This document shows, piece by piece, positions 49,506-63,490 of a stretch of 64,000 nucleotides of DNA. The DNA is from Dechloromonas hankyongensis (lineage in GTDB: Bacteria; Pseudomonadota; Gammaproteobacteria; Burkholderiales; Rhodocyclaceae): contig NZ_JAKLTN010000006.1 in NCBI RefSeq assembly GCF_022012295.1, positions 1 through 64,000 on the forward strand, given 5' to 3'. Position 1 is the first letter of the stretch; every line of letters starts with the position of its first letter. The notes below the pieces were generated by a model. That model was not told the DNA's origin. It worked only from the letters and a program-made list of their open reading frames with translations, and did not search any database. Position numbers and translations under genes: made by a program.

Positions 49506-49856
49506 ATGCCCTCCGGAATCACGATGCAGTCCGGTTGGCCAGTGCTGAAAGGAGCGCCGCTGTTGCTGGCGCTCCTTTCTTTTTCTGCCGCGGCGCAGAC
49601 GGTTGCCGAGGTGACCATCGCCGGCTACCAGTTTCAGCCGGCCGAGGTCAGCATCAAGGTCGGCGATAGCGTGCGGTGGACCAATCGCGAAAAGCGGACC
49701 AGCCATTCGGTGCTCTTCCCGGCCGAAGGCGGGCTGGAGTCCGAACGGATGTTTCCCGACGAAAGCTGGGAGCGCCGCTTCGAGCAGGCCGGACGTTACG
49801 ACTATCATTGCGGTCCGCATCCGGAAATGAAAGGTGTTGTCGTTGTCGGCGAGTAA
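49506..49856 (+). CDS. Amicyanin/plastocyanin-like cupredoxin
   Basis: A 116-residue blue copper protein with a signal peptide (GAPLLLALLSFSAAA, cleavage near residue 31). Type 1 copper ligands are visible: H67 in RTSHSVLF, and C102, H105, M108 in YHCGPHPEMKG. The C-x2-H-x2-M spacing is that of amicyanin rather than azurin. It is a likely periplasmic electron donor to NirS. The start could be the ATG at 49524. A terminator-shaped hairpin lies inside the signal-peptide coding region. Confidence 0.85.
   Translation: MPSGITMQSGWPVLKGAPLLLALLSFSAAAQTVAEVTIAGYQFQPAEVSIKVGDSVRWTNREKRTSHSVLFPAEGGLESERMFPDESWERRFEQAGRYDYHCGPHPEMKGVVVVGE
49548..49585 (+). terminator. Terminator-like hairpin inside the cupredoxin signal-peptide region
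   Basis: AAAGGAGCGCC and GGCGCTCCTTT pair perfectly (11 bp) around a 9-base loop and are followed by CTTTTTCT. It is placed 50 bases after the cytochrome stop, as a normal terminator would be, yet it is within coding sequence. Confidence 0.65.
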
Positions 49857-50160
49857 GGTCGTATGGGGTTTGTTGTTGCTGGCGACGGCCGCGTGGGCCG
49901 CGGAGCCCGATGCGCAGCGACAGAAGGAACTGGTCCATCTGGTGCGCCAGGATTGCGGCTCCTGTCACGGCATGACGCTGAAAGGCGGGCTGGGGCCGGC
50001 ACTGTTGCCGGAAACCTTGCGCGACAAGCCGGTCGAAGGACTGGTGGCGACCATTTATTATGGCCGCCCGGGAACGCCGATGCCGCCCTGGAAGCAATTC
50101 ATGTCCGAAGCCGAGGCGGCCTGGATAGTCGATAAACTGATGACGAAATTCCCCGAGTGA
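49834..50160 (+). CDS. nirC: NirC-like c-type cytochrome
   Basis: A 108-residue periplasmic cytochrome with a signal peptide (VVWGLLLLATAAWA) and a single haem motif CGSCH (C41, C44, H45). The C-terminal methionine ligand is probably in GTPMPPWKQF. Size and position between the electron donors and nirF match NirC, which is implicated in haem d1 maturation or electron donation to NirS. The start is taken as GTG 49834, overlapping the cupredoxin gene by 23 bp; nearby TTG codons are alternatives. Confidence 0.82.
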   Translation: MLSLSASKVVWGLLLLATAAWAAEPDAQRQKELVHLVRQDCGSCHGMTLKGGLGPALLPETLRDKPVEGLVATIYYGRPGTPMPPWKQFMSEAEAAWIVDKLMTKFPE

Positions 50161-50167
50161 GAATCCG

Positions 50168-51331
50168 ATGCGCCTGCTGCTGAGTCTGTTCCTCGCCCTG
50201 TTGCTCAATGCCTGTGCCGGCCCACAAGTGCGGGGTACGGGCGATCTTGGCCTGATCATCGAACGCTCGTCGGGCTACGTCACGCTGGTCAATACCACAT
50301 CGCGCCAGCCGTATGCCCGCATCGGCGGCCTGGGCGATCTGTCGCACGCCTCCGCCGTCTATTCGCGTGATGGCCGCTATGCCTTCATCTTCGGCCGCGA
50401 CGGCGGGCTGACCAAGATCGATCTGCTCGAAGCGAAAATCGTCAAGCGCGTCATCCAGTCCGGCAACGCTATCGGCGGCTCGATTTCGCAGGATGGCCGC
50501 ATCGTCGTCGCCCAGAACTACACACCGGGCGGCATCAAGGCCTTCGATGCCGAAACCCTGGAACTGCTCTCCGAAGTACCGGCCGAACATGCGCCGGGGC
50601 AATTCTCCAAGGTGGTCGGCCTGGCCGATACGGCCGGCAACAAGTTCGCCTATGCGCTGTTCGAGGGCGGCGAAATCCGCATCACCGATTTCAGCGATCC
50701 GAAACAGCCGAAGACCCAGCGCTTCCCGGCCGGCAGCCAGCCCTACGATGGCCTGGTGACGCCGGATGGGCGCTATTTCATGGCCGGCCTGTTCGGCGAG
50801 GACGGCATCGCCCTGCTCGACCTGTGGCAGCCGGAAAAGGGCGCCCGCAAGATTCTCGAAAAATACGGCCGCGGCGAGGAAAAGCTGCCGGTGTTCAAGA
50901 TGCCGCACCTGCGCGGCTGGTCGGTGGCGCAGGGCAAGGCCTACCTGCCGGCGATCGGCCGCCACGAGGTGCTGGTCGTTGATGTCGCGACCTGGAAGGA
51001 AGTCGGCCGCATTCCGGTGCGCGGCCAGCCGGTATTCGTCATGGCTCGCCCCGACGGGCGCCAGATCTGGGTCAATTTCGCCTTCCCCGACAATGGCAAG
51101 GTTGATGTCATTGATACCCTGGCCGGCCAGGTGGTGCATCGCATGGAGCCGGGAAAGGGCATCCTGCACATGGAATTCGCGCCGCGCGGCGAGAACGTCT
51201 GGCTCTCCGCGCGCGACGACAACAAGGTGGTGATCTACAACACCGAAAACTTCGCCAAGCTGGGCGAAATCCCGGCCGACAGCCCGTCCGGCATCTTCTT
51301 CACTTCGCGCGCCGCGCGCATCGGCTTCTGA
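50168..51331 (+). CDS. nirF: Haem d1 biosynthesis protein NirF
   Basis: A 387-residue periplasmic beta-propeller protein. A lipobox (LLLNAC, C16) suggests membrane anchoring, as in other NirF proteins. The body resembles the d1 domain of NirS, with SHASAVYSRDGRYAFIFGRDG and repeated propeller strands. NirF is reported to act late in haem d1 synthesis, oxidising 12,18-didecarboxysirohaem-derived intermediates. It starts 7 bp after nirC, and its stop overlaps nirDL. Confidence 0.95.
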   Translation: MRLLLSLFLALLLNACAGPQVRGTGDLGLIIERSSGYVTLVNTTSRQPYARIGGLGDLSHASAVYSRDGRYAFIFGRDGGLTKIDLLEAKIVKRVIQSGNAIGGSISQDGRIVVAQNYTPGGIKAFDAETLELLSEVPAEHAPGQFSKVVGLADTAGNKFAYALFEGGEIRITDFSDPKQPKTQRFPAGSQPYDGLVTPDGRYFMAGLFGEDGIALLDLWQPEKGARKILEKYGRGEEKLPVFKMPHLRGWSVAQGKAYLPAIGRHEVLVVDVATWKEVGRIPVRGQPVFVMARPDGRQIWVNFAFPDNGKVDVIDTLAGQVVHRMEPGKGILHMEFAPRGENVWLSARDDNKVVIYNTENFAKLGEIPADSPSGIFFTSRAARIGF

Positions 51332-52299
51332 TGGACGACACCTTAGACTTTCACCTGCTGAACGACTTTCAGCGCGATTTTCCGCTCTGCCCGGCGCCGT
51401 TTGCCGAATTGGCCTCGCGCCTGGGGGTGGCCGAAAAGCTGGTGCTCGGCCGCCTCGACAACCTGCGCCGCGAAGGCAAGATCTCGCGGGTCGGCGCCGT
51501 CTTCGCCCCCAAGCGCATCGGCGCCTCGACCCTGGCCGCCATGGCGGTGCCGCCGGAAAAACTGGAAGCGGTGGCCGCAGCGGTCAATCGCTTTCCCGAG
51601 GTCAATCACAACTACGAGCGGGAGCACCGCTACAACCTGTGGTTCGTCGTCACCGCCGCCAGCGAAGGCCGTCTGCAGGCAACGCTGGGCGCCATCGCGC
51701 AGGCCGCCGGTTATCCGCTGATGCCCTTGCCGCTGCTCGAGGAATTCCATATCGATCTCGGTTTCTCGCTGGCCGGCGAAGCGAAGAAGAATGTCGCCGC
51801 CGCCCGGCCGGTGGCGCCGGCCCAGCCCATCGGCGAGATCGAACGACGGCTGATTTCCGTGCTGCAGGAAGGCCTGCCCATGTTCATCCGGCCTTTCCAG
51901 CTGATTGCCAGCCGCGTCGGCAGTTCGGAGAGCGAAGTGCTCGGCCGTATCCGCCGGTGGCTGGAAGAGGGGGCGATCAAGCGTTTCGGCGTCGTCGTCC
52001 GCCATCACGAACTGGGCTACCGGGCCAATGCCATGCTGGTGCACGACATTCCCGACGACCGGGTCAGCGACATGGGCCGCGCCCTGGCCGAAGAGCCGGC
52101 CGTGACCCTGTGCTACCGCCGGCCGCGCTGCCTGCCGGAGTGGCCGTACAACCTGTTCTGCATGATCCATGGCCGCGAGCGCGGCGAGGTCGAGGCGACC
52201 ATCGCCGACCTGCGCCGCCGCCACGGCCTGGAAAGCTGCGCCCATGAAACCCTCTTTTCGCTGACGCGCTTCAAGCAGAACGGGGCGCGTTATGCCTGA
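51331..52299 (+). CDS. nirDL: Fused sirohaem decarboxylase subunits NirD-NirL
   Basis: A 322-residue cytoplasmic protein made of two AsnC/Lrp-like halves. The first (1-150) has a winged-helix start (DFQRDFPLCPAPFAELASRLGV) and NHNYEREHRYNLWFVV. The second (about 165-322) repeats it (LISVLQEGLPMFIRPFQLIASRVG) and ends its core with CYRRPRCLPEWPYNLFCMIHG. Together with NirG and NirH it decarboxylates sirohaem to 12,18-didecarboxysirohaem. The NirDL fusion is known in several Beta- and Gammaproteobacteria. It is coupled to nirF and overlaps nirG by 8 bp. Confidence 0.93.
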   Translation: MDDTLDFHLLNDFQRDFPLCPAPFAELASRLGVAEKLVLGRLDNLRREGKISRVGAVFAPKRIGASTLAAMAVPPEKLEAVAAAVNRFPEVNHNYEREHRYNLWFVVTAASEGRLQATLGAIAQAAGYPLMPLPLLEEFHIDLGFSLAGEAKKNVAAARPVAPAQPIGEIERRLISVLQEGLPMFIRPFQLIASRVGSSESEVLGRIRRWLEEGAIKRFGVVVRHHELGYRANAMLVHDIPDDRVSDMGRALAEEPAVTLCYRRPRCLPEWPYNLFCMIHGRERGEVEATIADLRRRHGLESCAHETLFSLTRFKQNGARYA

Positions 52300-52750
52300 A
52301 TTGTCAGCGTTGGATCGCCGGATACTGGCCACCTTGCAGGGCGATTTCCCGATTTGCGAGCAGCCCTACGCCGCGGCGGCCGCCCAGCTCGGCATCGGCG
52401 AAAGCGAGTTGCTCGAGCGCCTGCAGCAGTTGTTGGCCGACAAGGTGCTGACCCGTTTCGGGCCGATGTTCCAGATCGAGGAAATGGGCGGCGCCTTCGT
52501 GCTGGCGGCGCTGGCCGCACCGGAGGAGCGCTACGAAGAGGTGGCGAGCCAGGTTAATGCCCTGCCGCAGGTGGCCCACAACTATCGGCGCGAACACGCC
52601 TTGAACATGTGGTTCGTGCTGGCCACGGAAAGCAAAGCGGGGATAGCCGAAGCCATCGCCCGTATCGAACACGACACCGGCTTGCCGGTCTATGCCTTCC
52701 CGAAGGAACGGGAATATTTCGTCGAAATGAAGCTGGAGGCCAGGCTGTGA
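52292..52750 (+). CDS. nirG: Sirohaem decarboxylase subunit NirG
   Basis: A 152-residue AsnC/Lrp-like protein: an N-terminal winged helix (LDRRILATLQGDFPICEQPYAAAAAQLG) and a C-terminal domain with AHNYRREHALNMWFVLATE. It resembles the NirD half of the upstream fusion, which distinguishes it from NirH. It overlaps nirDL by 8 bp and nirH by 4 bp, so it is coupled on both sides. Confidence 0.9.
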   Translation: MPELSALDRRILATLQGDFPICEQPYAAAAAQLGIGESELLERLQQLLADKVLTRFGPMFQIEEMGGAFVLAALAAPEERYEEVASQVNALPQVAHNYRREHALNMWFVLATESKAGIAEAIARIEHDTGLPVYAFPKEREYFVEMKLEARL

Positions 52751-53223
52751 TCGATCAAACCGACCGCGCCCTGATTGTCGCCACCCAGGGCGGCCTGCCG
52801 CTGGTACCGCGGCCTTATGCGGCCATTGCCGAGCAGCTGGGGATCGGTGCCGACGAAGTCATGCAGCGTTTGCGCAACATGGTCGAATCCGGAGTGATAC
52901 GCCGTATCGGCGCAGTGCCCAACCACTACGCCATCGGCTGGACGGCCAATGGCATGACGGTATGGGACGTCGCCGACGAACAGGTGGACGCACTCGGCGC
53001 CGTGGTCGGCGGGCTCGATTTCGTCACTCATTGCTACCGCCGGCCGCGCGCCATGCCGGCTTGGCCGTACAACCTGTTCGCCATGGTGCATGGGGCTTCG
53101 CGTGACGAATGCGCCGCCAAGGCAGCCGAAATCCGCGCACTGCTCGGTGCTGCCTGTGGGGGCAGCGATATCTTGTATTCGACCCGTATTCTGAAGAAGT
53201 CCGGGCTACGCATCGGCAGCTAG
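52747..53223 (+). CDS. nirH: Sirohaem decarboxylase subunit NirH
   Basis: A 158-residue AsnC/Lrp-like protein beginning at GTG overlapping the nirG stop (GTGA). It has IDQTDRALIVATQGGLPLVPRP at the start and CYRRPRAMPAWPYNLFAMVHG, matching the NirL half of the fusion. It is the last gene of the cluster in this window. The expected radical-SAM haem d1 gene nirJ does not follow; a cold-shock gene does. Confidence 0.9.
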   Translation: MIDQTDRALIVATQGGLPLVPRPYAAIAEQLGIGADEVMQRLRNMVESGVIRRIGAVPNHYAIGWTANGMTVWDVADEQVDALGAVVGGLDFVTHCYRRPRAMPAWPYNLFAMVHGASRDECAAKAAEIRALLGAACGGSDILYSTRILKKSGLRIGS

Positions 53224-54353: not shown

Positions 54354-54381
54354 AAAAGCCCGGCACAAGCCGGGCTTTTTC
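54354..54381. terminator. Bidirectional terminator
   Basis: AAAGCCCGGC and GCCGGGCTTT pair around ACAA, with A and T tracts on the two sides. It separates the plus-strand infA group from the minus-strand GGDEF-EAL gene. Confidence 0.9.
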
Positions 54382-54446: not shown

Positions 54447-57400
54447 TCAGGTATGGACCAGCGGCTGGGCGCTGCTCTCGATCTGCAACTGGTGCAGGAT
54501 GGCCAATACCTCGTCGCGGGTGGCAAGCAGCCCGGGAAGCAGGGCGCGCGCCTCGCCGGTCTTGCCGTCGCGCCAGCAGATGTCGATGGCGTCGGCAATC
54601 CGGTGCAGGCGGCGGTGCGGCGCCTCGATCGCCTGAAAGGCCGGCAGGCGTTTGCAGAAGCCGGCGCCTTCGCTGGCCAGCCATTGGCCGAACTGGCACT
54701 GGCGATAATCATGCACGCGCCGGTGCGGCGGCGCCTGATCGTGCTCGAGCGCGAAGGCTAGCTGCTCGACCCAGCTGCGATGCGCGACTTCGGCGATCAG
54801 CAAGGGATAGACCGTTTCGTCCCACTTGATGTCGCTGATCGTCCGCCATTCCGCCGGCGCTTGCCACTGCCTGGCCCAGTCGGCGAAGGCGTCGCCCGGC
54901 ATCGGTTTGGCGATGCCGAACCCCTGGGCACGGTCGCACCCGAGCTGGATCAGGAAGCGGCCGTGTTCGACGGTTTCCACGCCTTCGGCGATGACTTCGC
55001 GCTGGAAAGAGCGGGCCAGGCCGATCACGCTGCGCACGATCACCAGGTTGTGGCTGTCGTTGAGGATTTCCCGGACAAAGCTCTGGTCGATCTTGATGGT
55101 CTCGGCGGGCAGACGCTTCAAGTAAGTCAGCGACGAATAGCCGGTGCCGAAGTCGTCGAGCGCGAAGCGGATGCCCAGCTGGCGGCACTCATCGATAACG
55201 CGCGAACTCTTGACCACGTCTTCGAGGGCGGCCGTTTCGAGAATTTCCAGCTCGAGGCGATGGGCGACTTCGGGGTGCAGGTAGAGGATGGCTTTCAGCT
55301 TCTCTATAAATTCCGGCGCCTGCAACTGCCGGGCCGCGATATTGACGCTGACCGGGATGGCGAAGCCGGCCGCCTGCCACGTTTCCATCTGCTGAAGGGC
55401 GGATTCGATGACCCAGTCGCCGATCAGCTTGATCAGGTCGTCGTCCTCGATCAGCGGCAGGAAATCGACCGGCGGCAGCAGGCCGCGTTCCGGGTGCTGC
55501 CAGCGGATCAGCGCTTCGGCACCGATCACCGTGCCCTGCCGGAGATCGACCTTGGGCTGGTAGTAGAGACGGAATTCCTGGTTGTCCAGCGCCTGTTCGA
55601 TACGCAGGTAACGATCCTGGCGGCTGCGCTTGAACTTGTCCTGTTCGGTATCGAACAGGTGGCAGGAATTCTTGCCCGCCTCCTTGGCGTGGTACATCGC
55701 CTGGTCGGCGTGGCGCAACAAGGTGTCGGGGTCGGCGTCGTCGTTGGGGAACAGGGTGATGCCCATGCTGGCCGAGATGGAGATATTGCCCGGCACCTGG
55801 GTCAGTGGCGTGGAGATCAGCTGCAGGATGCGCAGCGCCGCCTCGCGGGCTTCGGCATGGCCGTCGATATCGTGCAGGAGCAGGACGAATTCGTCGCCGC
55901 CCAGGCGGGCCACGGTGTCGCCGCCACGCAGGGCACCCTGCAGGCGGCGGGCGATCTCGATCAGCACCTTGTCGCCGGTCAGGTGGCCCCAGGTATCGTT
56001 GATCGGCTTGAAACCGTCGAGATCGAGATAGCAGATGGCAATCGACGTGCCGGTGCGCCGCGCCTGGGCGATGCCCTGGCCGAGGCGGTCGGCGAGCAGG
56101 ACGCGGTTGGGCAGTTCGGTCAGGGCGTCGTAATAGGCGAGTTGGGTGAGCTGCTGTTCCTGCGCCTTGATGCGGCGGATGTCGGCGAAGACGGCGACGT
56201 AGTTGCTCAATTTGCCTTCCGCGTTACGGACGGCGGAAATCGACAGCAGTTCGGGATAGATGTCGCCGAACTTGTTGCGGTTCCAGATTTCGCCGCGCCA
56301 ACTGCCGGTTTCGCGGATGCTCTGCCACATCGCCTGGTAGAAGGCCTCGTCGTGGCGGCCGGATTTGAACATGCGCGGGCTGCGGCCGATGACTTCGTCG
56401 CGCTCCCAGCCGGTGATGCGGGTGAAGGCCGGGTTGACGTCGAGAATCATGCCGTCGGCGTCGGTCAGCGTGATGCCGTCGTGCGCGCTGCGGAAGGCGG
56501 TGGCGTGCAGCGACAGCTGCTTTTCGACGGCCAGTTGCGCGGCATAGCGGGCACTGAGTTCGCGGTGGGCGCGGCTCAGCGACTGGCGGGTGCGCTCGAG
56601 GCGGAAGATGAACCAGGCGAGAAAGGCAGCGAGCAGGATGGCCTCGGCGTAGAGCAGGCTACGGTAGCGGCCGGCCCGGGCCGATGCCTGGTCATGGGCG
56701 CGGGCGTAGTCGAGGAACAGCTTTTCCATTTGCTGGCGGCTGCCCAAGGCGACGATTTCCTGCGTCAGGCGATCAAGGTCGAGCAGGTGCTGGGTGATCT
56801 GCTCGCCGTGTACCAGCAGGTTGGCGATCGCCTCGCCGGCCGCCGCGGCCTGCGGTTGGGCGCGCAACTGCTGGACATGCCGGGCGACGCGCAGGCTGCC
56901 TTCGATGCTGGGCGTGCGTGTGAAGGCGAGCATGGCGCGGACGTAGTGCTCCGTCTGCTGGCGCAGAGCAGGCCGCAGGGTCAAGGCCGGGCGTTCGAGC
57001 AGCTCTTCGGCGGCCACCGGGAAATAGGCCTGCGAATTGCGCAATACGGCGTTCTCGCGCTTGAAGCGGTCGATCAGTTCGGCTTTGCGGCCGACGGTGC
57101 GGGCGAGATCGGCAGCCTCGCGGCCGATCGACTCGCGCGCCGCCGGATCGAGAAAGGCCGGCGGGTGCTGGATGGTGCGCACGATACTTTCGGCTTGGCC
57201 GATCCGCTCGGTCAGGGCGTCGTAGTTGCGCACCAGCTCCAGGCGGTTGGCCAGCAGTTCGCCATCGACCAGAGTGTCGATCTCGCGCAAATCGCGTAGC
57301 CGGCGGGTGTAATCGGCATGGCTCTCCGGGGAGACGGCGGCGGAGTTGACGAAGGTCCAGGTCAGCAAGGCGATGCAGAGCAGCGCGCCGAGCACGGTCC

Positions 57401-57467
57401 ACGGTCCGCTGATCCCGATATGCCATGGATTGCGGTCTTCCGGCTGGTTCAGGTCGGGCGCGTTCAT
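54447..57467 (-). CDS. Membrane DAHL-PAS-GGDEF-EAL-CZB cyclic-di-GMP signalling protein
   Basis: A 1006-residue inner-membrane protein. A first helix (about 28-46) leads into a helical periplasmic DAHL-type sensor (about 50-275, with RNYDAL and FKRENAVLRNSQAYFP), and a second helix lies near 278-296. PAS (about 320-430), GGDEF (GGDEF intact near 523) and EAL (EALIRW near 650; DDFGTGYSS, EGVET intact) follow. The C-terminus (about 890-1000) looks like a CZB zinc-binding domain: HRSW, CQFGQWL and PHRRLH. Both c-di-GMP active sites look usable. The ATG overlaps the stop of the cytochrome peroxidase gene (ATGA). Confidence 0.9.
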   Translation of the reverse strand: MNAPDLNQPEDRNPWHIGISGPWTVLGALLCIALLTWTFVNSAAVSPESHADYTRRLRDLREIDTLVDGELLANRLELVRNYDALTERIGQAESIVRTIQHPPAFLDPAARESIGREAADLARTVGRKAELIDRFKRENAVLRNSQAYFPVAAEELLERPALTLRPALRQQTEHYVRAMLAFTRTPSIEGSLRVARHVQQLRAQPQAAAAGEAIANLLVHGEQITQHLLDLDRLTQEIVALGSRQQMEKLFLDYARAHDQASARAGRYRSLLYAEAILLAAFLAWFIFRLERTRQSLSRAHRELSARYAAQLAVEKQLSLHATAFRSAHDGITLTDADGMILDVNPAFTRITGWERDEVIGRSPRMFKSGRHDEAFYQAMWQSIRETGSWRGEIWNRNKFGDIYPELLSISAVRNAEGKLSNYVAVFADIRRIKAQEQQLTQLAYYDALTELPNRVLLADRLGQGIAQARRTGTSIAICYLDLDGFKPINDTWGHLTGDKVLIEIARRLQGALRGGDTVARLGGDEFVLLLHDIDGHAEAREAALRILQLISTPLTQVPGNISISASMGITLFPNDDADPDTLLRHADQAMYHAKEAGKNSCHLFDTEQDKFKRSRQDRYLRIEQALDNQEFRLYYQPKVDLRQGTVIGAEALIRWQHPERGLLPPVDFLPLIEDDDLIKLIGDWVIESALQQMETWQAAGFAIPVSVNIAARQLQAPEFIEKLKAILYLHPEVAHRLELEILETAALEDVVKSSRVIDECRQLGIRFALDDFGTGYSSLTYLKRLPAETIKIDQSFVREILNDSHNLVIVRSVIGLARSFQREVIAEGVETVEHGRFLIQLGCDRAQGFGIAKPMPGDAFADWARQWQAPAEWRTISDIKWDETVYPLLIAEVAHRSWVEQLAFALEHDQAPPHRRVHDYRQCQFGQWLASEGAGFCKRLPAFQAIEAPHRRLHRIADAIDICWRDGKTGEARALLPGLLATRDEVLAILHQLQIESSAQPLVHT

Positions 57468-58483
57468 TCGAGAACCTTGCCTTGCCATTCGCCGGTCAGC
57501 GTACCGAGGAAGGCGACGATGGCATGCACGTCGTCGTTCGACAACTGGCGCCCAAGCTGGTAACGGCCCATGACCATGACCGCTTCTTCCAGGGTTTTGG
57601 CCGAGGCATCGTGGAAGTAAGGGGCGGTCAGCGCGACGTTGCGCAGCCCCGGCACCTTGAAGACATGGCGGTCCTCCGCCTTGCCGGTGACGTTGAAGCG
57701 GCCGAGGTCGGCTGTGTTCTCGGGGCGTCCGCGAAAATAGTCGGCCATCACGCCGAAGCGCTGGTACATATTGCCGCCGATGCCGACCCCCTGGTGGCAG
57801 CTGGCGCAGCCGAGTTCGAGGAAGCGCCGGTAGCCGTGCTGTTCCTGGTCATTCAGCGCATTGCCGTCGCCGAGCAGGAAGCGGTCGAAACGGCTGTTCG
57901 GCGTGGTCAGCGTCCGTTCGAAAGCGGCGATGGCATCGGTGATCGCTTCGCTGCTGATGCCAGCCGGGTAGAGTCTGGCGAAGGCGCTGCGATAGCTATC
58001 GTCCTGCAGCAGCTTGGCGATGACTTGCGGCCAGCTGGAGTCCATTTCGAGTGGGTTGTGCACCGGGCCGGCGGCCTGCTCTTCCAGCGTGGCGGCACGG
58101 CCATCCCAGAACTGGACGAAATTGAGGCTGGCGTTGAATACGGTCGGCGCATTGATCGGCCCGAGCTGGCCGCCGACGCCGATGGAGACCGGCTTGCGGT
58201 CGATGCCGCCGTGGCTCAGGTCATGGCAAGTAGAGCAGGAAAGGGTGTCGTCCCGCGACAGGCGAGGTTCGAAAAAGAGGCGCTGGCCGAGTTCTGCCTT
58301 GGCCGACAGCGGGGCGGCAGCGGCGAGCAGCGGGCGCAAGGCCTGATGTTCCCATTTTACCGGGATGGCCGGCAGGGCAGCCTCGGGTGCTTCGGCGACG
58401 TCGTGGGGCGATAGGGCCCATCCGAAAACGAGCAGAAGAAGCACGGCAAGCAACAGGGAAGCGAGAATGCGGACCGCTTTCAT
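57464..58483 (-). CDS. Cytochrome c peroxidase/MauG-family dihaem protein, membrane-anchored
   Basis: A 339-residue protein with an N-terminal hydrophobic helix (residues 4-24, uncleaved anchor or signal) and two haem c motifs, CSTCH (C83, C86, H87) and CASCH (about 227-231). GPINAPTVFNASLN, QFWDGRAATLEEQA and HVFKVPGLRNVALTAPYFHD are hallmarks of the bacterial cytochrome c peroxidase/MauG family. It probably handles periplasmic peroxide or oxidises a partner. The open frame continues far upstream antisense to cphA, but the start MKAVRILASLL is supported by the membrane helix. The downstream GGDEF-EAL-CZB gene overlaps it. Confidence 0.92.
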   Translation of the reverse strand: MKAVRILASLLLAVLLLLVFGWALSPHDVAEAPEAALPAIPVKWEHQALRPLLAAAAPLSAKAELGQRLFFEPRLSRDDTLSCSTCHDLSHGGIDRKPVSIGVGGQLGPINAPTVFNASLNFVQFWDGRAATLEEQAAGPVHNPLEMDSSWPQVIAKLLQDDSYRSAFARLYPAGISSEAITDAIAAFERTLTTPNSRFDRFLLGDGNALNDQEQHGYRRFLELGCASCHQGVGIGGNMYQRFGVMADYFRGRPENTADLGRFNVTGKAEDRHVFKVPGLRNVALTAPYFHDASAKTLEEAVMVMGRYQLGRQLSNDDVHAIVAFLGTLTGEWQGKVLE

Positions 58484-58641: not shown

Positions 58642-61230
58642 TCAGGCTGCTTCCGCGATGCGCCGCGTGATATGGGCCAGCGCCTCCTCGACCTGGTCGA
58701 TCAGGATCAGGCACAGGTCCCCCGGTTGCAGGCGTTCCAGCGCCAGATCGATGGCCTTGAATTCGCCGGTGATCTGGTCGATGCGCTTGGTGCGCTTGGC
58801 GTGCTTCAGTCCGTCGCGGAGCAGGGCGACGACTTCGCCGTCTTCCCGGCCGCGCTGGCAGGCGTCCTGGTAGAGGATGGCATCGTCGAAGGCTTGGCCG
58901 AGGATTTCGGTCTGCTGGCGGATGTCGTCGTCGCGCCGGTCGCCGGCACCGCTGATGACCACCGAGCGGCGCACCGACTTCATGCCTTCGACGGCCTGGA
59001 CCAGGGCCTGCATGGCATCCGGGTTGTGGCCGTAGTCGGCGATCAGCGTCGCACCCTTGTAGTCGAAGACGTTGAAGCGGCCGGGGGCGGTGGCGGCGTC
59101 GCTGACGAAGCCGGCCAGCGCCTTTTCGATCACCGCCCAGTCGAGGCCCAGGGCCCAGCCGGTGGCCGTGGCGGCCATGGCGTTCTCGACCTGGAAGCCG
59201 ATGCTGCCGTTGCGGGTCAGCGGAATGGCGGAGAACGGAATGCGGTAGCTCTTGCGGCCTTCCTGGCAGACGATGCCTTCGTCGTTGGCATAGACGACGC
59301 GCTTGTTCTGGGCGCGGTGGGTGGCGAGCACCGGGTTGGCCTTGTCGCGGGCGAAGAAGGTGACGTTGCCGGGGCAGTGCGCCGCCATGCGGGTGACCTG
59401 CGGGTCGGCCGCATTGAGCACGGCCATGCCCTTGGGCGAAACGTTCTCGACGATGACGCGCTTGACCACGGCCAGCTCGTCCACCGTCGTGATGTAGTTG
59501 AGGCCGAGGTGGTCGCCGATGCCGATATTGGTCACCACGGCGACATCGCACATGTCGAAGCCGAGGCCTTCGCGCAGCACGCCGCCGCGGGCGGTCTCGA
59601 ACACCGCGGCATCGACGTCCGGATGCATCAGCACGTTGCGCGCGCTGCGCGGGCCGGAGCAGTCGCCGTTGTCGATCTGCCGGCCTTCGATATAGACGCC
59701 GTCGGTGCTGGTCATGCCGACGCGTTGGCCGTTGGCCTCGAAAATGCGGCCGATCAGGCGGCTGGTGGTCGTCTTGCCGTTGGTGCCGGCGATGGCGACG
59801 ACCGGGATGCGGGCGTTTTCGGGTTTTCCGTTGGGGCCATTGGGGAACATCATGCCGACGATGGCTTCGCCGACGGCGCGGCCCTTGCCGAAGGACGGGT
59901 CGAGGTGCATGCGCAGGCCGGGGGCGGCATTGACTTCGACGATGCCGCCGCCCTGGTCTTCCAGCGGCTTCAGGATGGTGTCGCACACCACGTCGATGCC
60001 GGCGATGTCGAGGCCGACCGTCTGGGCGGCAGCGACTGCGGCGGCGGCGAGGTCGGGATGGACGTCGTCGGTGACGTCGGTGGCGGTGCCGCCGGTGGAC
60101 AGGTTGGCGTTGTTGCGCAGGATGACGCGCACGCCGCGGCCGGGCACGGTGTCGGCGGTGAAGCCTTGCTGGGCCAGGCGGGCGACGGCGATATCGTCGA
60201 AGCGGATCTTGGTCAGCGAGGTGGCGTGGCCGTCGGAGCGGCGCGGATCGCTATTGACGATATCGACCAGCTGGCGGACGGTGTGCGTGCCGTCGCCGAT
60301 GACCAGCGGCGGATCGCGGCGGGCGGCGGCGATCAGCTTGTCGCCGATGACCAGCAGGCGCCAGTCGTGGCCGGGCAGGTATTTCTCGACCATGATGTCG
60401 TCGCGGAACTCGATGGCGACGCGGTAGGCCTTGCGCACCTGTTCCTCGGTGGTCAGATTGACCGAAATGCCCTTGCCCTGGTTGCCGTCCTGCGGCTTGA
60501 CGACGACCGGCAGGCCGACTTCCTGGGCGGCGACCCAGGCGTCGTCCTCGTCATCGACCGGGCGGCCGTAGGGCACGGCGACGCCGGAGGCATGCAGCAG
60601 CTTCTTGGTCAGTTCCTTGTCCTGCGCGATCGATTCGGCGATGGCGCTGGTGAAGCTGGTTTCGGCGGCCTGGATGCGCTTCTGCTTGCTGCCCCAGCCG
60701 AACTGGACCAGGCTGCCCTGGGTCAGGCGACGGAAGGGAATGCCGCGGGCCTGGGCAGCCGCCACGATGGCGCCGGTGGACGGGCCGAGGCGGATGTCTT
60801 CGTCGAGGTCGCGCAATTCCTTCAGCGTGCCGTCGAGGTCGAACGGTGTGTCGTTGAGGGCGGCCAGGCAGAGCTTTTCGGCGTATTCGAAAGCCAGGCG
60901 GCCGACATCCTCTTCCGAGTATTCGACGACGACCTGGTAGATGCCGGCCTCGACCGTCTGCGTCGTCCGGCTGAAGGTCACCGGGCAGCCGGCTTGGGCC
61001 TGCAGGCCGAGGGCGCAGAATTCGAGGGCGTGAGCCATCGACACGGTATCGAGGTGATCGGACGGGATCAGGTCGCCCAACTCCGGAAAGCGCTCGCGCA
61101 GGCGGGTTTCGAAGCCGGGCAGGTTGGCGATGGCCACTTCGTCGCCATTGCAGCTGACGATGGCCTGGATGGCGGTGTGGCGGCTCCACAGGTTGGGGCC
61201 GCGCAGGGCACGAATGCGGGAAACGTCCAT
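58642..61230 (-). CDS. cphA: Cyanophycin synthetase
   Basis: An 862-residue enzyme that builds the storage polymer multi-arginyl-poly-aspartate from Asp, Arg and ATP. It begins MDVSRIRALRGPNLWSRHT. An N-terminal domain is followed by an ATP-grasp domain (about 220-470; VVVKPQDGNQGKGISVNL, IVEVNAAPGLRMH). The Mur-ligase-like domain carries the P-loop VVAIAGTNGKTTTSRLIG (about 485), IGIGDHLGLNYI and the C-terminal lobe with LIADYGHNPDAMQALV. Length and domains match active CphA1. It lies 16 bp after a paralogue. Confidence 0.96.
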   Translation of the reverse strand: MDVSRIRALRGPNLWSRHTAIQAIVSCNGDEVAIANLPGFETRLRERFPELGDLIPSDHLDTVSMAHALEFCALGLQAQAGCPVTFSRTTQTVEAGIYQVVVEYSEEDVGRLAFEYAEKLCLAALNDTPFDLDGTLKELRDLDEDIRLGPSTGAIVAAAQARGIPFRRLTQGSLVQFGWGSKQKRIQAAETSFTSAIAESIAQDKELTKKLLHASGVAVPYGRPVDDEDDAWVAAQEVGLPVVVKPQDGNQGKGISVNLTTEEQVRKAYRVAIEFRDDIMVEKYLPGHDWRLLVIGDKLIAAARRDPPLVIGDGTHTVRQLVDIVNSDPRRSDGHATSLTKIRFDDIAVARLAQQGFTADTVPGRGVRVILRNNANLSTGGTATDVTDDVHPDLAAAAVAAAQTVGLDIAGIDVVCDTILKPLEDQGGGIVEVNAAPGLRMHLDPSFGKGRAVGEAIVGMMFPNGPNGKPENARIPVVAIAGTNGKTTTSRLIGRIFEANGQRVGMTSTDGVYIEGRQIDNGDCSGPRSARNVLMHPDVDAAVFETARGGVLREGLGFDMCDVAVVTNIGIGDHLGLNYITTVDELAVVKRVIVENVSPKGMAVLNAADPQVTRMAAHCPGNVTFFARDKANPVLATHRAQNKRVVYANDEGIVCQEGRKSYRIPFSAIPLTRNGSIGFQVENAMAATATGWALGLDWAVIEKALAGFVSDAATAPGRFNVFDYKGATLIADYGHNPDAMQALVQAVEGMKSVRRSVVISGAGDRRDDDIRQQTEILGQAFDDAILYQDACQRGREDGEVVALLRDGLKHAKRTKRIDQITGEFKAIDLALERLQPGDLCLILIDQVEEALAHITRRIAEAA

Positions 61231-61246
61231 GACGCGATGTTCCTTG

Positions 61247-63490
61247 TTATTTTTGCAGTACCGCGCGCAGCGGCTTCTTGGCCTGGATCGGCAACAGGAT
61301 CTCGGGGTCCGGCAGGTCGAGGCCGATCGTCTTGACGCCGGTGGCGATGACTTCCAGGGTCAGGCCCAGCGCCCAGCCGGCGGCGACGGCGGCCAGCACG
61401 TTCGCGATGTCGTCCGGATTCTTGCCCTTGCCGATCAGTGGTACGTCACCGAGGCGGCAAATGCGCGTTTCGTCGTTCCCTGTACGCAGGATGATGCGAC
61501 CGTCGGCGACGGTAACGCCGCGCTTGCCGGCGGCGAAATGCTCGGCCAGCTTCAGGCAGGACGGATCGCCGGTGAAGAAGATGACCTCGCCGTCGCACAG
61601 CTCGGCCATGTCGGCGACCATCGGGTCGGAGGCGTTGAGCACGGCGTAGCCGGACGGCAGTACGACGTCGACCTGGGTGCGATAGGTCGAGCGGTGGGTG
61701 GTGTAGTACTCGCCGCCGGTCGGCTGGACGTCCCAGCGCGACAGTTCTTCATCGGCGGGTACGATGTTGGTGATGATGCCGACCGAGCAGCGGTCGTAGG
61801 CCAGGCCTTCGCCGAGGATGACCTTGGCGCCGTTTTCGATCACCGCAGCCTCGACGGCGCGGTTGAGGAGCAGGCGATGGCCGGCCGCCCAGTTCTCGGC
61901 GTCGGTCTTCTGCACCTGGCGGCGGTCGAGGAACAGGCCGTCGCTGCAGGCCAGGCCGGTCTTGCTGCCGGACAGGTAGAGCAGGTGGGCGACCAGCTTG
62001 GCGACGGCAGTCTTGCCGTGCGTGCCGGTGACGCCGACCAGCGGGATACGGCCGGTCTGGTTGGCGGAGAACAGGTTGTCCACGATGGCCTGGCCGACCG
62101 GGCGCGGCTTGCCGACGCCGGGCTTGATGTGCATGAGCAGGCTGGGGCCGGCATTGACTTCGACGATGGCGCCGCCCTGGGCGGCCAGCGGCTTCGAGAT
62201 GTCCTGGCAGACCAGGTCGATGCCGGCGATGTCGAGACCGACGACGCGGGCGGCCAGCGAAGCGATGGCGGCGGTATCGGGATGGACTTCGTCGGTGCAG
62301 TCGAAGGCGTGGTTGGCGTTGCGCTGGATCAGCACTTCGCGGTCGGTTTCCGGCACGCTGTCGGCGGTCAGCTTCTGGCGGTCGAGTTCCATCTGGGCCG
62401 CGGTGTCGATGCGGATGATGGACAGCGGATGCAGTTCGGTCGTGCCGCGGCGCGGGTCGATGTTGATCTGGCTGTCGATCAATTCCTGTACGGTCGATTT
62501 GCCGTCGCCGGTCACGGTAATCAGGTCGCTGCGGTTGGCGGCGACCAGCTTGCCGCCGATAACCAGCAGGCGGTGCTCGATGCCCTGGATCGAGCGTTCG
62601 ACCAGCACGCCGGAGCCTTCCTCGACGGCGATGGCGTAGGCCTTGCGTACGTCGTCGGCGCTCTTCAGGTCGATGAACACGCCACGGCCATGGTTGCCGT
62701 CGGTCGGCTTGACGACCACCGGGAAGCCGATGTCGTCGGCGGCTTCGCAGGCGTCGTCGGCATTGTCGACCTCGCGGCCTTCCGGCACCGGCACGCCGAC
62801 CGAGGAAATCAGTTCCTTGGTCAGGTCCTTGTCGCGCGAAATGGTTTCGGCGATGGCGCTGGTGCTGTCGGTTTCGGCCGTCCAGATGCGGCGCATGGCG
62901 GCGCCGTAACCGAGTTGGACCAGGTTGCCGTCATCGAGCAGGCGGATGTGCGGAATCTTGCGCGCTTCGGCGGCATTGACGATGGCGGCGGTGGACGGGC
63001 CGAGGTACTTGCGGTCGACCTTGCGGCGCAGCGGCTTGATCGCTTCGGCGACGTCGAAGGACTCGTCGTGGATGGCGGCAAGCAGCAGTTCGCGGCCGAT
63101 TTGCAGCGCCAGGCGGGTGCATTCCTCGTGGAAGTTGCTGACTACCAGCTTGTAGACGCCGCGCGTCGTCGTTTCGCGGGTGCGGCCGAAGCCGTCGGGC
63201 AGCCCGGCCAGGGTCATCAGTTCGAGCGTCACGTGCTCAAGGATGTGGCCGGCCCAGGTGCCTTCCTGCAGGCGGCGCAGGAAACCGCCGCGCTCGTCGT
63301 AGTTGCAGCGGTGCTCGACCAGCGACGGCAGCCAGGCCGTCAGGCGCTCGTAGAGGCCGGGAATCTTGTTGGAGGGGTAGTCTTCGAGTTCCCCGATGTC
63401 GATCCAGCTTTCGATGGACGGCGGATAGGTCCAGATGCTCGGGCCACGCAGTGAAATCATGTCCCGAAAGATGATGTCCTTTTTCTTCAT
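61247..63490 (-). CDS. Cyanophycin synthetase paralogue (CphA'), C-terminally reduced
   Basis: A 747-residue homologue of CphA. The N-terminal domain (MISLRGPSIWTYPPSIESWI), the ATP-grasp domain (VVVKPTDGNHGRGVFIDL, IVEVNAGPSLLMH) and the Mur P-loop GVTGTHGKTAVAKLV are kept. The conserved GDHLG loop is replaced by VPADEELSRWDVQP, and the protein ends (IQAKKPLRAVLQK) before the C-terminal ligase lobe that CphA has. Betaproteobacteria often carry such a pair, and reduced synthetases (CphA2) of cyanobacteria can use beta-Asp-Arg dipeptides. Whether this one does so is inference. The start could be ten codons later (MISLRGP). Confidence 0.9.
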   Translation of the reverse strand: MKKKDIIFRDMISLRGPSIWTYPPSIESWIDIGELEDYPSNKIPGLYERLTAWLPSLVEHRCNYDERGGFLRRLQEGTWAGHILEHVTLELMTLAGLPDGFGRTRETTTRGVYKLVVSNFHEECTRLALQIGRELLLAAIHDESFDVAEAIKPLRRKVDRKYLGPSTAAIVNAAEARKIPHIRLLDDGNLVQLGYGAAMRRIWTAETDSTSAIAETISRDKDLTKELISSVGVPVPEGREVDNADDACEAADDIGFPVVVKPTDGNHGRGVFIDLKSADDVRKAYAIAVEEGSGVLVERSIQGIEHRLLVIGGKLVAANRSDLITVTGDGKSTVQELIDSQINIDPRRGTTELHPLSIIRIDTAAQMELDRQKLTADSVPETDREVLIQRNANHAFDCTDEVHPDTAAIASLAARVVGLDIAGIDLVCQDISKPLAAQGGAIVEVNAGPSLLMHIKPGVGKPRPVGQAIVDNLFSANQTGRIPLVGVTGTHGKTAVAKLVAHLLYLSGSKTGLACSDGLFLDRRQVQKTDAENWAAGHRLLLNRAVEAAVIENGAKVILGEGLAYDRCSVGIITNIVPADEELSRWDVQPTGGEYYTTHRSTYRTQVDVVLPSGYAVLNASDPMVADMAELCDGEVIFFTGDPSCLKLAEHFAAGKRGVTVADGRIILRTGNDETRICRLGDVPLIGKGKNPDDIANVLAAVAAGWALGLTLEVIATGVKTIGLDLPDPEILLPIQAKKPLRAVLQK

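Follow-up and report, generated by a model that had tools for sequence, protein, structure and literature searches.

We analysed a 64,000-nucleotide stretch of DNA from Dechloromonas hankyongensis (NCBI RefSeq assembly GCF_022012295.1, contig NZ_JAKLTN010000006.1, positions 1 to 64,000), hereafter the window, and identified on its minus strand two overlapping genes, one for a di-haem cytochrome c peroxidase (CCP), the other for a membrane receptor that joins a periplasmic DAHL domain to output domains of cyclic di-GMP (c-di-GMP) signalling. Across the genomes surveyed, such genes form a conserved operon with a fixed order and overlap; its outputs are exchangeable, its DAHL domains carry residues associated with the CCP, and its peroxidases make up a specialised set. 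CCP and DAHL genes in this arrangement are referred to as linked. Both genes and their overlap, listed below, lie where a first-pass annotation of this DNA had placed them.

57464..58483, minus strand: di-haem CCP, 339 amino acids, with a hydrophobic N-terminus (Pfam CCP_MauG, E 4.5e-60)
54447..57467, minus strand: DAHL-PAS-GGDEF-EAL-CZB membrane protein, 1006 amino acids (Pfam domains)
57464..57467, minus strand: ATGA overlap of the CCP and DAHL genes (window reading frames)

The CCP gene is placed with its start at the ATG at 58483, and longer in-frame starts upstream are possible. A profile search of the genome returned a single DAHL match and a single CCP_MauG match, both belonging to this pair.

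The peroxidase and the receptor of the window

The window CCP scores 203 bits with Pfam CCP_MauG (cut-off 25.6) and contains two CXXCH haem motifs. Its best solved relatives are bacterial CCPs (9qdt, 1iqc, 3o5c and others, E 1e-90 to 1e-69), and MauG chains follow at only about 1e-28. The first-pass annotation had described a membrane-anchored protein of MauG/CCP type, and the CCP part of this description stands. We rejected identity with MauG, because the protein reaches 142 bits against a cut-off of 443.85 in the NCBIfam MauG model and carries Met305 at the distal ligand position; MauG uses a distal tyrosine as haem ligand. Judged from its sequence, anchoring of the window protein by its hydrophobic N-terminus is plausible, and this does not hold in general: read by eye, the N-termini of some linked CCPs resemble ordinary signal peptides. 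The positions in the enzyme to which we refer below are these.

58223..58237, minus strand: haem 1 motif, C83-S-T-C-H87; C83 and H87 are present in 198/198 distinct linked CCPs that are not gapped at these positions
58175..58177, minus strand: V103, where classical CCPs have their distal histidine (alignment of linked CCPs)
58046..58078, minus strand: Q136 to E146, catalytic Gln/Glu region; Gln in 193/199 and Glu in 184/199 distinct linked CCPs that are not gapped at these positions
57794..57808, minus strand: haem 2 motif, C226-A-S-C-H230 (CCP alignment)
57569..57571, minus strand: M305, distal ligand position of the electron-transfer haem; Met in 202/202 distinct linked CCPs

According to the alignment, the window CCP retains Q136, E146, W126 and M305 in addition to both haems. 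By analogy with classical CCPs, we take Q136 and E146 to be catalytic, W126 to lie between the haems and M305 to be the distal ligand of the high-potential haem. The place of V103 is one that we take to match His71 of classical CCPs. With V103 instead of a distal histidine on the peroxidatic haem, the window enzyme does not belong to the classical, reductively activated type.

The receptor is composed of five recognisable domains.

56661..57332, minus strand: DAHL periplasmic sensor domain (PF19443, E 3.3e-45, 154.9 bits against a cut-off of 38)
56175..56495, minus strand: PAS domain (Pfam, over the gathering cut-off)
55668..56138, minus strand: GGDEF domain, with the GGDEF motif and an upstream RGGD (I-site type) intact (Pfam, E 4.2e-48)
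54903..55601, minus strand: EAL domain, with the EAL and DDFGTG motifs intact (Pfam, E 2.3e-74)
54585..54782, minus strand: CZB domain with H896, C924, H951 and H955 (PF13682, E 1.5e-12, 48.2 bits against a cut-off of 29.4)

All five exceed their Pfam gathering cut-offs, which bears out the first-pass description of a c-di-GMP protein with a periplasmic sensor and a C-terminal CZB domain. The GGDEF and EAL domains carry the motifs expected of active enzymes (GGDEF, RxxD, EAL and DDFGTG), which fall in conserved alignment columns, and both are predicted to be catalytically competent. Assignment to the phosphodiesterase DibA was rejected, as the protein scores 601.5 bits against an NCBIfam equivalog cut-off of 980.

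Conservation of the pairing and exchange of outputs

To define the distribution of the pair, we searched for DAHL domains among relatives, where 93/299 contained one, and among genomes drawn from the phylum (62/398). From the relatives, we took every place over the cut-off apart from the second part of a single split match; the phylum-wide sample yielded 70 such places, of which two were already included, 60 were taken and 8 were not. One place just below the cut-off (genome G191) was also included and is counted as having no CCP. The surroundings of 152 DAHL genes were read; excluding two at contig ends gave 150 that could be assessed. A CCP gene lies directly upstream on the same strand in 124 of these 150 and is missing from that place in 26. 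The first-pass annotation had held that absence of the peroxidase gene next to orthologues would tell against its proposal; instead, the gene adjoins 66 of the 67 assessable DAHL-GGDEF-EAL genes, and gene context strongly supports its idea that the peroxidase and the signalling protein act as a pair. For comparison, any of six signalling domains was found within 1.5 kb in only 4/42 unlinked CCP loci, and based on this background and the 124/150 count we rejected chance pairing. We likewise rejected a peculiarity of one genus, because the linked rows span 15 families (counted from family labels, with close relatives of the window as a large share) and a cyanobacterium.

The pairing recurs outside this survey. 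When 23 diverse DAHL domains were aligned, no stretch proved sufficiently conserved for a scan of the sequence collection, and named genomes were scanned with five closer DAHL domains as the query, which biases the result towards Pseudomonas. Of 153 confirmed loci, 80 were examined and all 80 have an adjacent CCP; 78 of them are new and two were already in the survey. Adjacency in these 80 loci was judged by domain position, and in six the stop-to-stop frames overlap by more than 300 nucleotides. Most are from Pseudomonas, with Polaromonas, Mariprofundus and others also represented. We also read 11 plasmid regions, chosen for their CCP and partly for promising annotation (30 + 25 records listed), and the pair was present in 8, from Sinorhizobium, two Rhizobium species, Agrobacterium fabrum, Indioceanicola, Skermanella, Pseudoalteromonas and the cyanobacterium Gloeocapsa PCC 7428. 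The regions from Cupriavidus, Persicobacter and Methylotuvimicrobium contained a CCP without a DAHL pair. On the Rhizobium leguminosarum plasmid (L331), the DAHL and kinase parts that follow the CCP are two hypothetical proteins in separate frames, and the receptor gene looks split.

The gene overlap seen in the window is characteristic of the pairing. Two loci were entered twice (L184/L185 are the same genes as L168/L169), and the 204 linked pairs therefore correspond to 202 distinct ones, of which 176 share a four-nucleotide (A/G)TGA overlap. With the doubles counted, the overlap occurs in 177 of 204 pairs, and in 25 more the DAHL gene starts within 30 nucleotides.

The domains that follow DAHL vary. 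We assigned output domains in the survey using profiles derived from domains of the window or of L084, with a Pfam check on 10 + 5 + 5 proteins. Among the 124 linked DAHL genes, c-di-GMP outputs are represented by GGDEF-EAL (47), GGDEF-EAL-CZB (19) and GGDEF alone (2), and kinase outputs by PAS with a receiver (38), PAS (11) and plain kinases (6); one gene is cut short. Parsimony places nine switches between c-di-GMP and kinase outputs on the CCP tree and six on the DAHL tree, each count coming from a single tree with no support filter. CCP and DAHL stay together while the outputs change. For ten multi-pair genomes, distance patterns from which the species signal had been removed re-paired 19/23 correctly, against 10 expected. 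Over the 124 pairs, CCP and DAHL distances correlate at 0.73, a value that shared descent alone could yield.

Some lineages carry several pairs or further genes at the locus. One small genome (G337; L124, L160, L168, L173 and L180) contains five DAHL genes, every one of them paired with a separate CCP, and all five have kinase outputs of differing make-up. In most of the Pseudomonas loci (L192-L263), the pair is preceded by one or two codirectional REC-GGDEF-EAL genes; a divergent receiver gene is also frequent and in P. simiae is REC-HD by Pfam. With REC-GGDEF-EAL and REC-HD genes at these kinase loci, c-di-GMP appears again behind the kinase.

The CZB domain, which figured in the proposal of the first-pass annotation, is found in only 19 of 68 DAHL-GGDEF-EAL members, although three of the remaining 49 are truncated at a contig end. 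All four ligands are kept in 6 of 18 aligned CZB domains, including that of the window, and a further domain read by eye (L171) raises this count to 7/19. Among the 12 with incomplete ligands, the first histidine is a leucine in 11, and three retain one ligand. The annotation had named poor conservation of these ligands in homologues as evidence against its idea, and this is largely what we observed, the complete set in the window notwithstanding. We therefore rejected CZB as the core of the system and regard it as a minor add-on, not a defining feature, that may provide a zinc or oxidant input in the window protein. Proteins that combine CZB with GGDEF and EAL are an architecture class already surveyed (PMC8262984). 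The same source describes DgcZ as sensing hypochlorous acid (HOCl) through its CZB domain. The window protein resembles DgcZ and the GGDEF-EAL-CZB proteins in being a c-di-GMP enzyme with a CZB domain, but differs in that CZB is minor among its relatives and lacks a complete ligand set in most of them.

Residues and structure of linked receptors and peroxidases

Comparison of DAHL domains with and without an upstream CCP identified three positions that go with the peroxidase.

57219..57221, minus strand: D83 of DAHL; 124/124 with CCP, 3/26 without
57033..57038, minus strand: N144-S145 of DAHL; N144 in 119/124 with CCP, 1/26 without
56808..56810, minus strand: H220 of DAHL; 117/124 with CCP, 2/26 without

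The complete D83/N144/H220 set is present in 112/124 linked DAHL domains (12 exceptions), compared with 1/26 unlinked ones (L158). Both DAHL genes that lack upstream DNA because of contig ends retain the full set, and a CCP is predicted upstream of each. Apart from one clade of 20, the unlinked DAHL genes are L119, in which the domain is truncated, L140, L157 with L159, L162 and L158. The 20-member clade is of the kinase type, and at the loci listed most of the kinase genes precede a gene whose beginning resembles that of a Ser/Thr kinase (L097, L099, L111-L113, L115, L116 and L120-L122); in L120 this unit is doubled. In genome G424, a second DAHL kinase (L140) has neither an adjacent CCP nor the three residues, and the other (L166) is paired.

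The linked peroxidases are also distinct. Both haem motifs are kept, and among 198 distinct linked CCPs the His71 place is occupied by Phe, Ile, Val, Ala or Leu in 194, Thr in 2, Asp in 1, Tyr in 1 and His in none. The corresponding residues are Asp (9), His (7), Met (2), Ile (1), Ala (1) and Ser (1) in 21 unlinked CCPs, and His (18), Val (3) and Ile (1) in 22 further ones. This pattern suggests that the peroxidatic haem of linked CCPs would be open without reductive activation. In the CCP tree, a branch with support 0.99 parts all linked CCPs from 41/43 unlinked ones; the tree is midpoint-rooted only, and the linked CCPs thus represent one side of a split and not a rooted clade. Seven linked genes were entered twice in this tree, and its 211 linked rows correspond to 204 genes, or 202 distinct ones. 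Two unlinked CCPs fall on the same side as the linked ones: E. coli YhjA (ccp) and L319, which have three haem motifs each and lie at a long distance. YhjA, which we group with the quinol peroxidases, shares with linked CCPs its side of this best-supported split and a hydrophobic residue at the His71 place, and differs from them in its third haem motif and in having no DAHL neighbour. The catalytic Glu146 is missing in 15/199 distinct linked CCPs and in 6 of 7 linked plasmid CCPs examined, compared with 0/43 unlinked ones. In some lineages the linked CCP may thus no longer be an efficient peroxidase, yet it still stands beside DAHL.

A model of the window DAHL domain built from 97 sequences had a predicted local distance difference test score (pLDDT) of 97 and a predicted template modelling score (pTM) of 0.89. 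Foldseek returned no match to this model at E 0.001 or better, and a sequence search for a solved DAHL structure likewise found none, the best hit being myosin at E 0.006. A second structure aligner ranked McpS first (Z 17.2, root-mean-square deviation 2.5 over 199 residues), followed by TorS and PcaY_PP (Z 14.4), although Z is only moderately telling for helical bundles, since the same list contains unrelated and designed bundles with Z of 12 to 14. The McpS ligand-binding domain, a helical bimodular fold of two stacked helical bundles, was solved with succinate or malate, and we know of no enzyme partner of McpS. The TorS sensor, with 7 to 9% sequence identity to DAHL, works with a periplasmic partner protein and was solved in complex with that protein, TorT, in structures among these fold matches. 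TorT is a binding protein and not a haem enzyme. CCP-DAHL pairs share with systems of the TorT-TorS type an adjacent gene for a periplasmic partner, which would bind the sensor.

Other features lie near the pair in the window. A possible intrinsic terminator with an 11-pair stem lies 3' of the pair (54354..54379, minus strand); it is a weak candidate, as three terminator-like sites were found in the stretch against 3.4 expected. A sigma-70 scan gave no promoter-like site. Directly upstream (58642-63490, minus strand) is a tandem of two cyanophycin-synthetase-like ligases with ATP-grasp and Mur ligase domains. Convergent to the pair (49834-53223, plus strand) is a haem d1 type cluster that encodes a cytochrome c, a NirF-like protein with a cytochrome-D1 domain and three siroheme-decarboxylase-like (Nir/Ahb) proteins, one of them a fusion.

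The peroxidase as a candidate co-receptor

The evidence leans modestly towards CCP and DAHL forming one two-part periplasmic receptor, in which the peroxidase would act as a co-receptor in a manner resembling TorT-TorS. Occurrence of the same pairing across many bacteria with different outputs suggests that the enzyme is the sensing partner of the receptor. In such a system, the di-haem CCP would meet an oxidant in the periplasm, most likely hydrogen peroxide (H2O2) as a toxin or an electron acceptor, and its ligand-bound or redox state would change its seating on the helical DAHL domain, the signal being passed by protein contact. The signal would then cross the membrane via the second transmembrane helix to the output of the lineage. 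For the PAS-GGDEF-EAL output of the window this would alter cellular c-di-GMP, and elsewhere it would lead to phosphorylation or chemotaxis; CZB would serve as a second, optional cytoplasmic input. We infer the contact between CCP and DAHL, the role of H2O2 as the signal and the direction of the c-di-GMP change.

A partial precedent exists in Campylobacter jejuni. Published descriptions place docA, encoding a CCP, immediately upstream of docB, which is Tlp10, and report reduced colonisation by docA mutants and no contribution of either C. jejuni CCP to H2O2 resistance (PMC3156733). They also describe Cj0020 (DocA) as resembling three-haem quinol peroxidases more than the typical CCP Cj0358 (PMC5656828), in agreement with the position of YhjA on the linked side of our CCP tree. 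Taken together, these descriptions fit a CCP-DAHL pair with the gene order of the window and a chemotaxis output; a chemoreceptor thus takes the place of the c-di-GMP output of the window, and the portions available state no sensor role for DocA. The first-pass annotation had known of no described example. The docA-docB precedent (PMC3156733, PMC9796306) qualifies this. For the general case, our literature search, which did not extend to the original Tlp10 and DocA peroxidase papers, recognised no account of CCP-DAHL as a module in the accessible texts.

Other known systems are related in part. The DAHL kinases of Sinorhizobium, Rhizobium johnstonii, Indioceanicola and Skermanella that directly follow a CCP bear the NCBI name of VirA-like sensor kinases, a label of annotation likeness alone. 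In YfiR-YfiN, a periplasmic protein controls a membrane diguanylate cyclase. The same is described for HmsC-HmsD in the accessible text of a review of c-di-GMP sensing, in which the word "peroxidase" does not occur (PMC8846402). In neither system is the periplasmic partner a haem peroxidase.

Several observations weigh against a co-receptor role. The window CCP has all catalytic residues and is the sole CCP_MauG match of its genome, and it may simply be the peroxidase of this organism. The 26 DAHL genes without an adjacent CCP indicate that DAHL is not strictly dependent on it, and L158 among them has the full residue set. Because 20 of these 26 belong to one clade, the independent losses behind the residue association are few; more generally, the counts are often not phylogenetically independent, and about half of the survey is one genus. 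A hydrophobic residue at the His71 place also occurs in unlinked CCPs and is thus not exclusive to linked ones, and among the 15 cases of lost Glu146, three are conservative (Asp) and some fall in gapped stretches. Re-pairing failed in 2 of the 10 multi-pair genomes, and no CCP-DAHL fusion was seen among the surveyed loci.

The main rival to a co-receptor is direct sensing, in which DAHL would bind a small molecule (a carboxylate or the like) itself, D83, N144 and H220 would form the ligand pocket, and the CCP would be a co-expressed enzyme that, under the same conditions, removes H2O2 or uses it in respiration. Succinate and malate are ligands of McpS, the nearest fold, and Tlp10 is a DAHL chemoreceptor reported to detect several ligand classes including malate (PMC9796306); both points count against the co-receptor as well, and the three residues could indeed make up a polar pocket. 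We nevertheless consider direct sensing unlikely, as it leaves unexplained why these residues are mostly lost where the CCP is absent, why the pairing survives changes of output and why some linked CCPs have lost the catalytic Glu. It is also conceivable, though rather improbable, that the CCP makes or removes something (H2O2, an oxidised quinone or cytochrome, or another oxidised product) that DAHL senses without contact. Such an arrangement would suit the window enzyme, with its haems and its Gln, Glu, Trp and Met in place, and the unlinked CCPs that fall with the linked ones in the tree, which are three-haem, YhjA-type peroxidases. By contrast, linked CCPs without Glu should be poor enzymes yet remain paired, and the conserved DAHL columns show no evident redox-active metal site. 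The redox-to-biofilm system of the first-pass annotation, with the cytoplasmic zinc-CZB domain as the oxidant sensor, could draw on the four intact ligands of the window CZB and on the HOCl sensing of DgcZ (PMC8262984). Absence of a detectable CZB from 49/68 GGDEF-EAL members, three of them cut by a contig end, and incomplete ligands in 12/18 aligned domains make it very improbable.

Returning to the co-receptor, a bolder version is one that we put forward tentatively and with some doubt. DAHL-linked CCPs would be dedicated haem co-receptors, with a pre-opened peroxidatic haem and in several lineages no longer proper enzymes, that report periplasmic peroxide, another haem ligand or electron supply via D83, N144 and H220 to exchangeable outputs. 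If true, this would define a widespread class of peroxidase-gated transmembrane receptors that includes Campylobacter docA-docB, and it would solve the puzzle of a CCP needed for colonisation and not for peroxide resistance. The pairing merges two questions, the stimulus of DAHL and the absent peroxide phenotype of the C. jejuni CCPs, into one that can be tested. If the enzyme is the sensor, kinases annotated as VirA-like would gain a likely class of stimulus, and Pseudomonas, rhizobia, iron oxidisers (Mariprofundus), a cyanobacterium and Campylobacter would share a single input module wired to c-di-GMP, kinases or chemotaxis.

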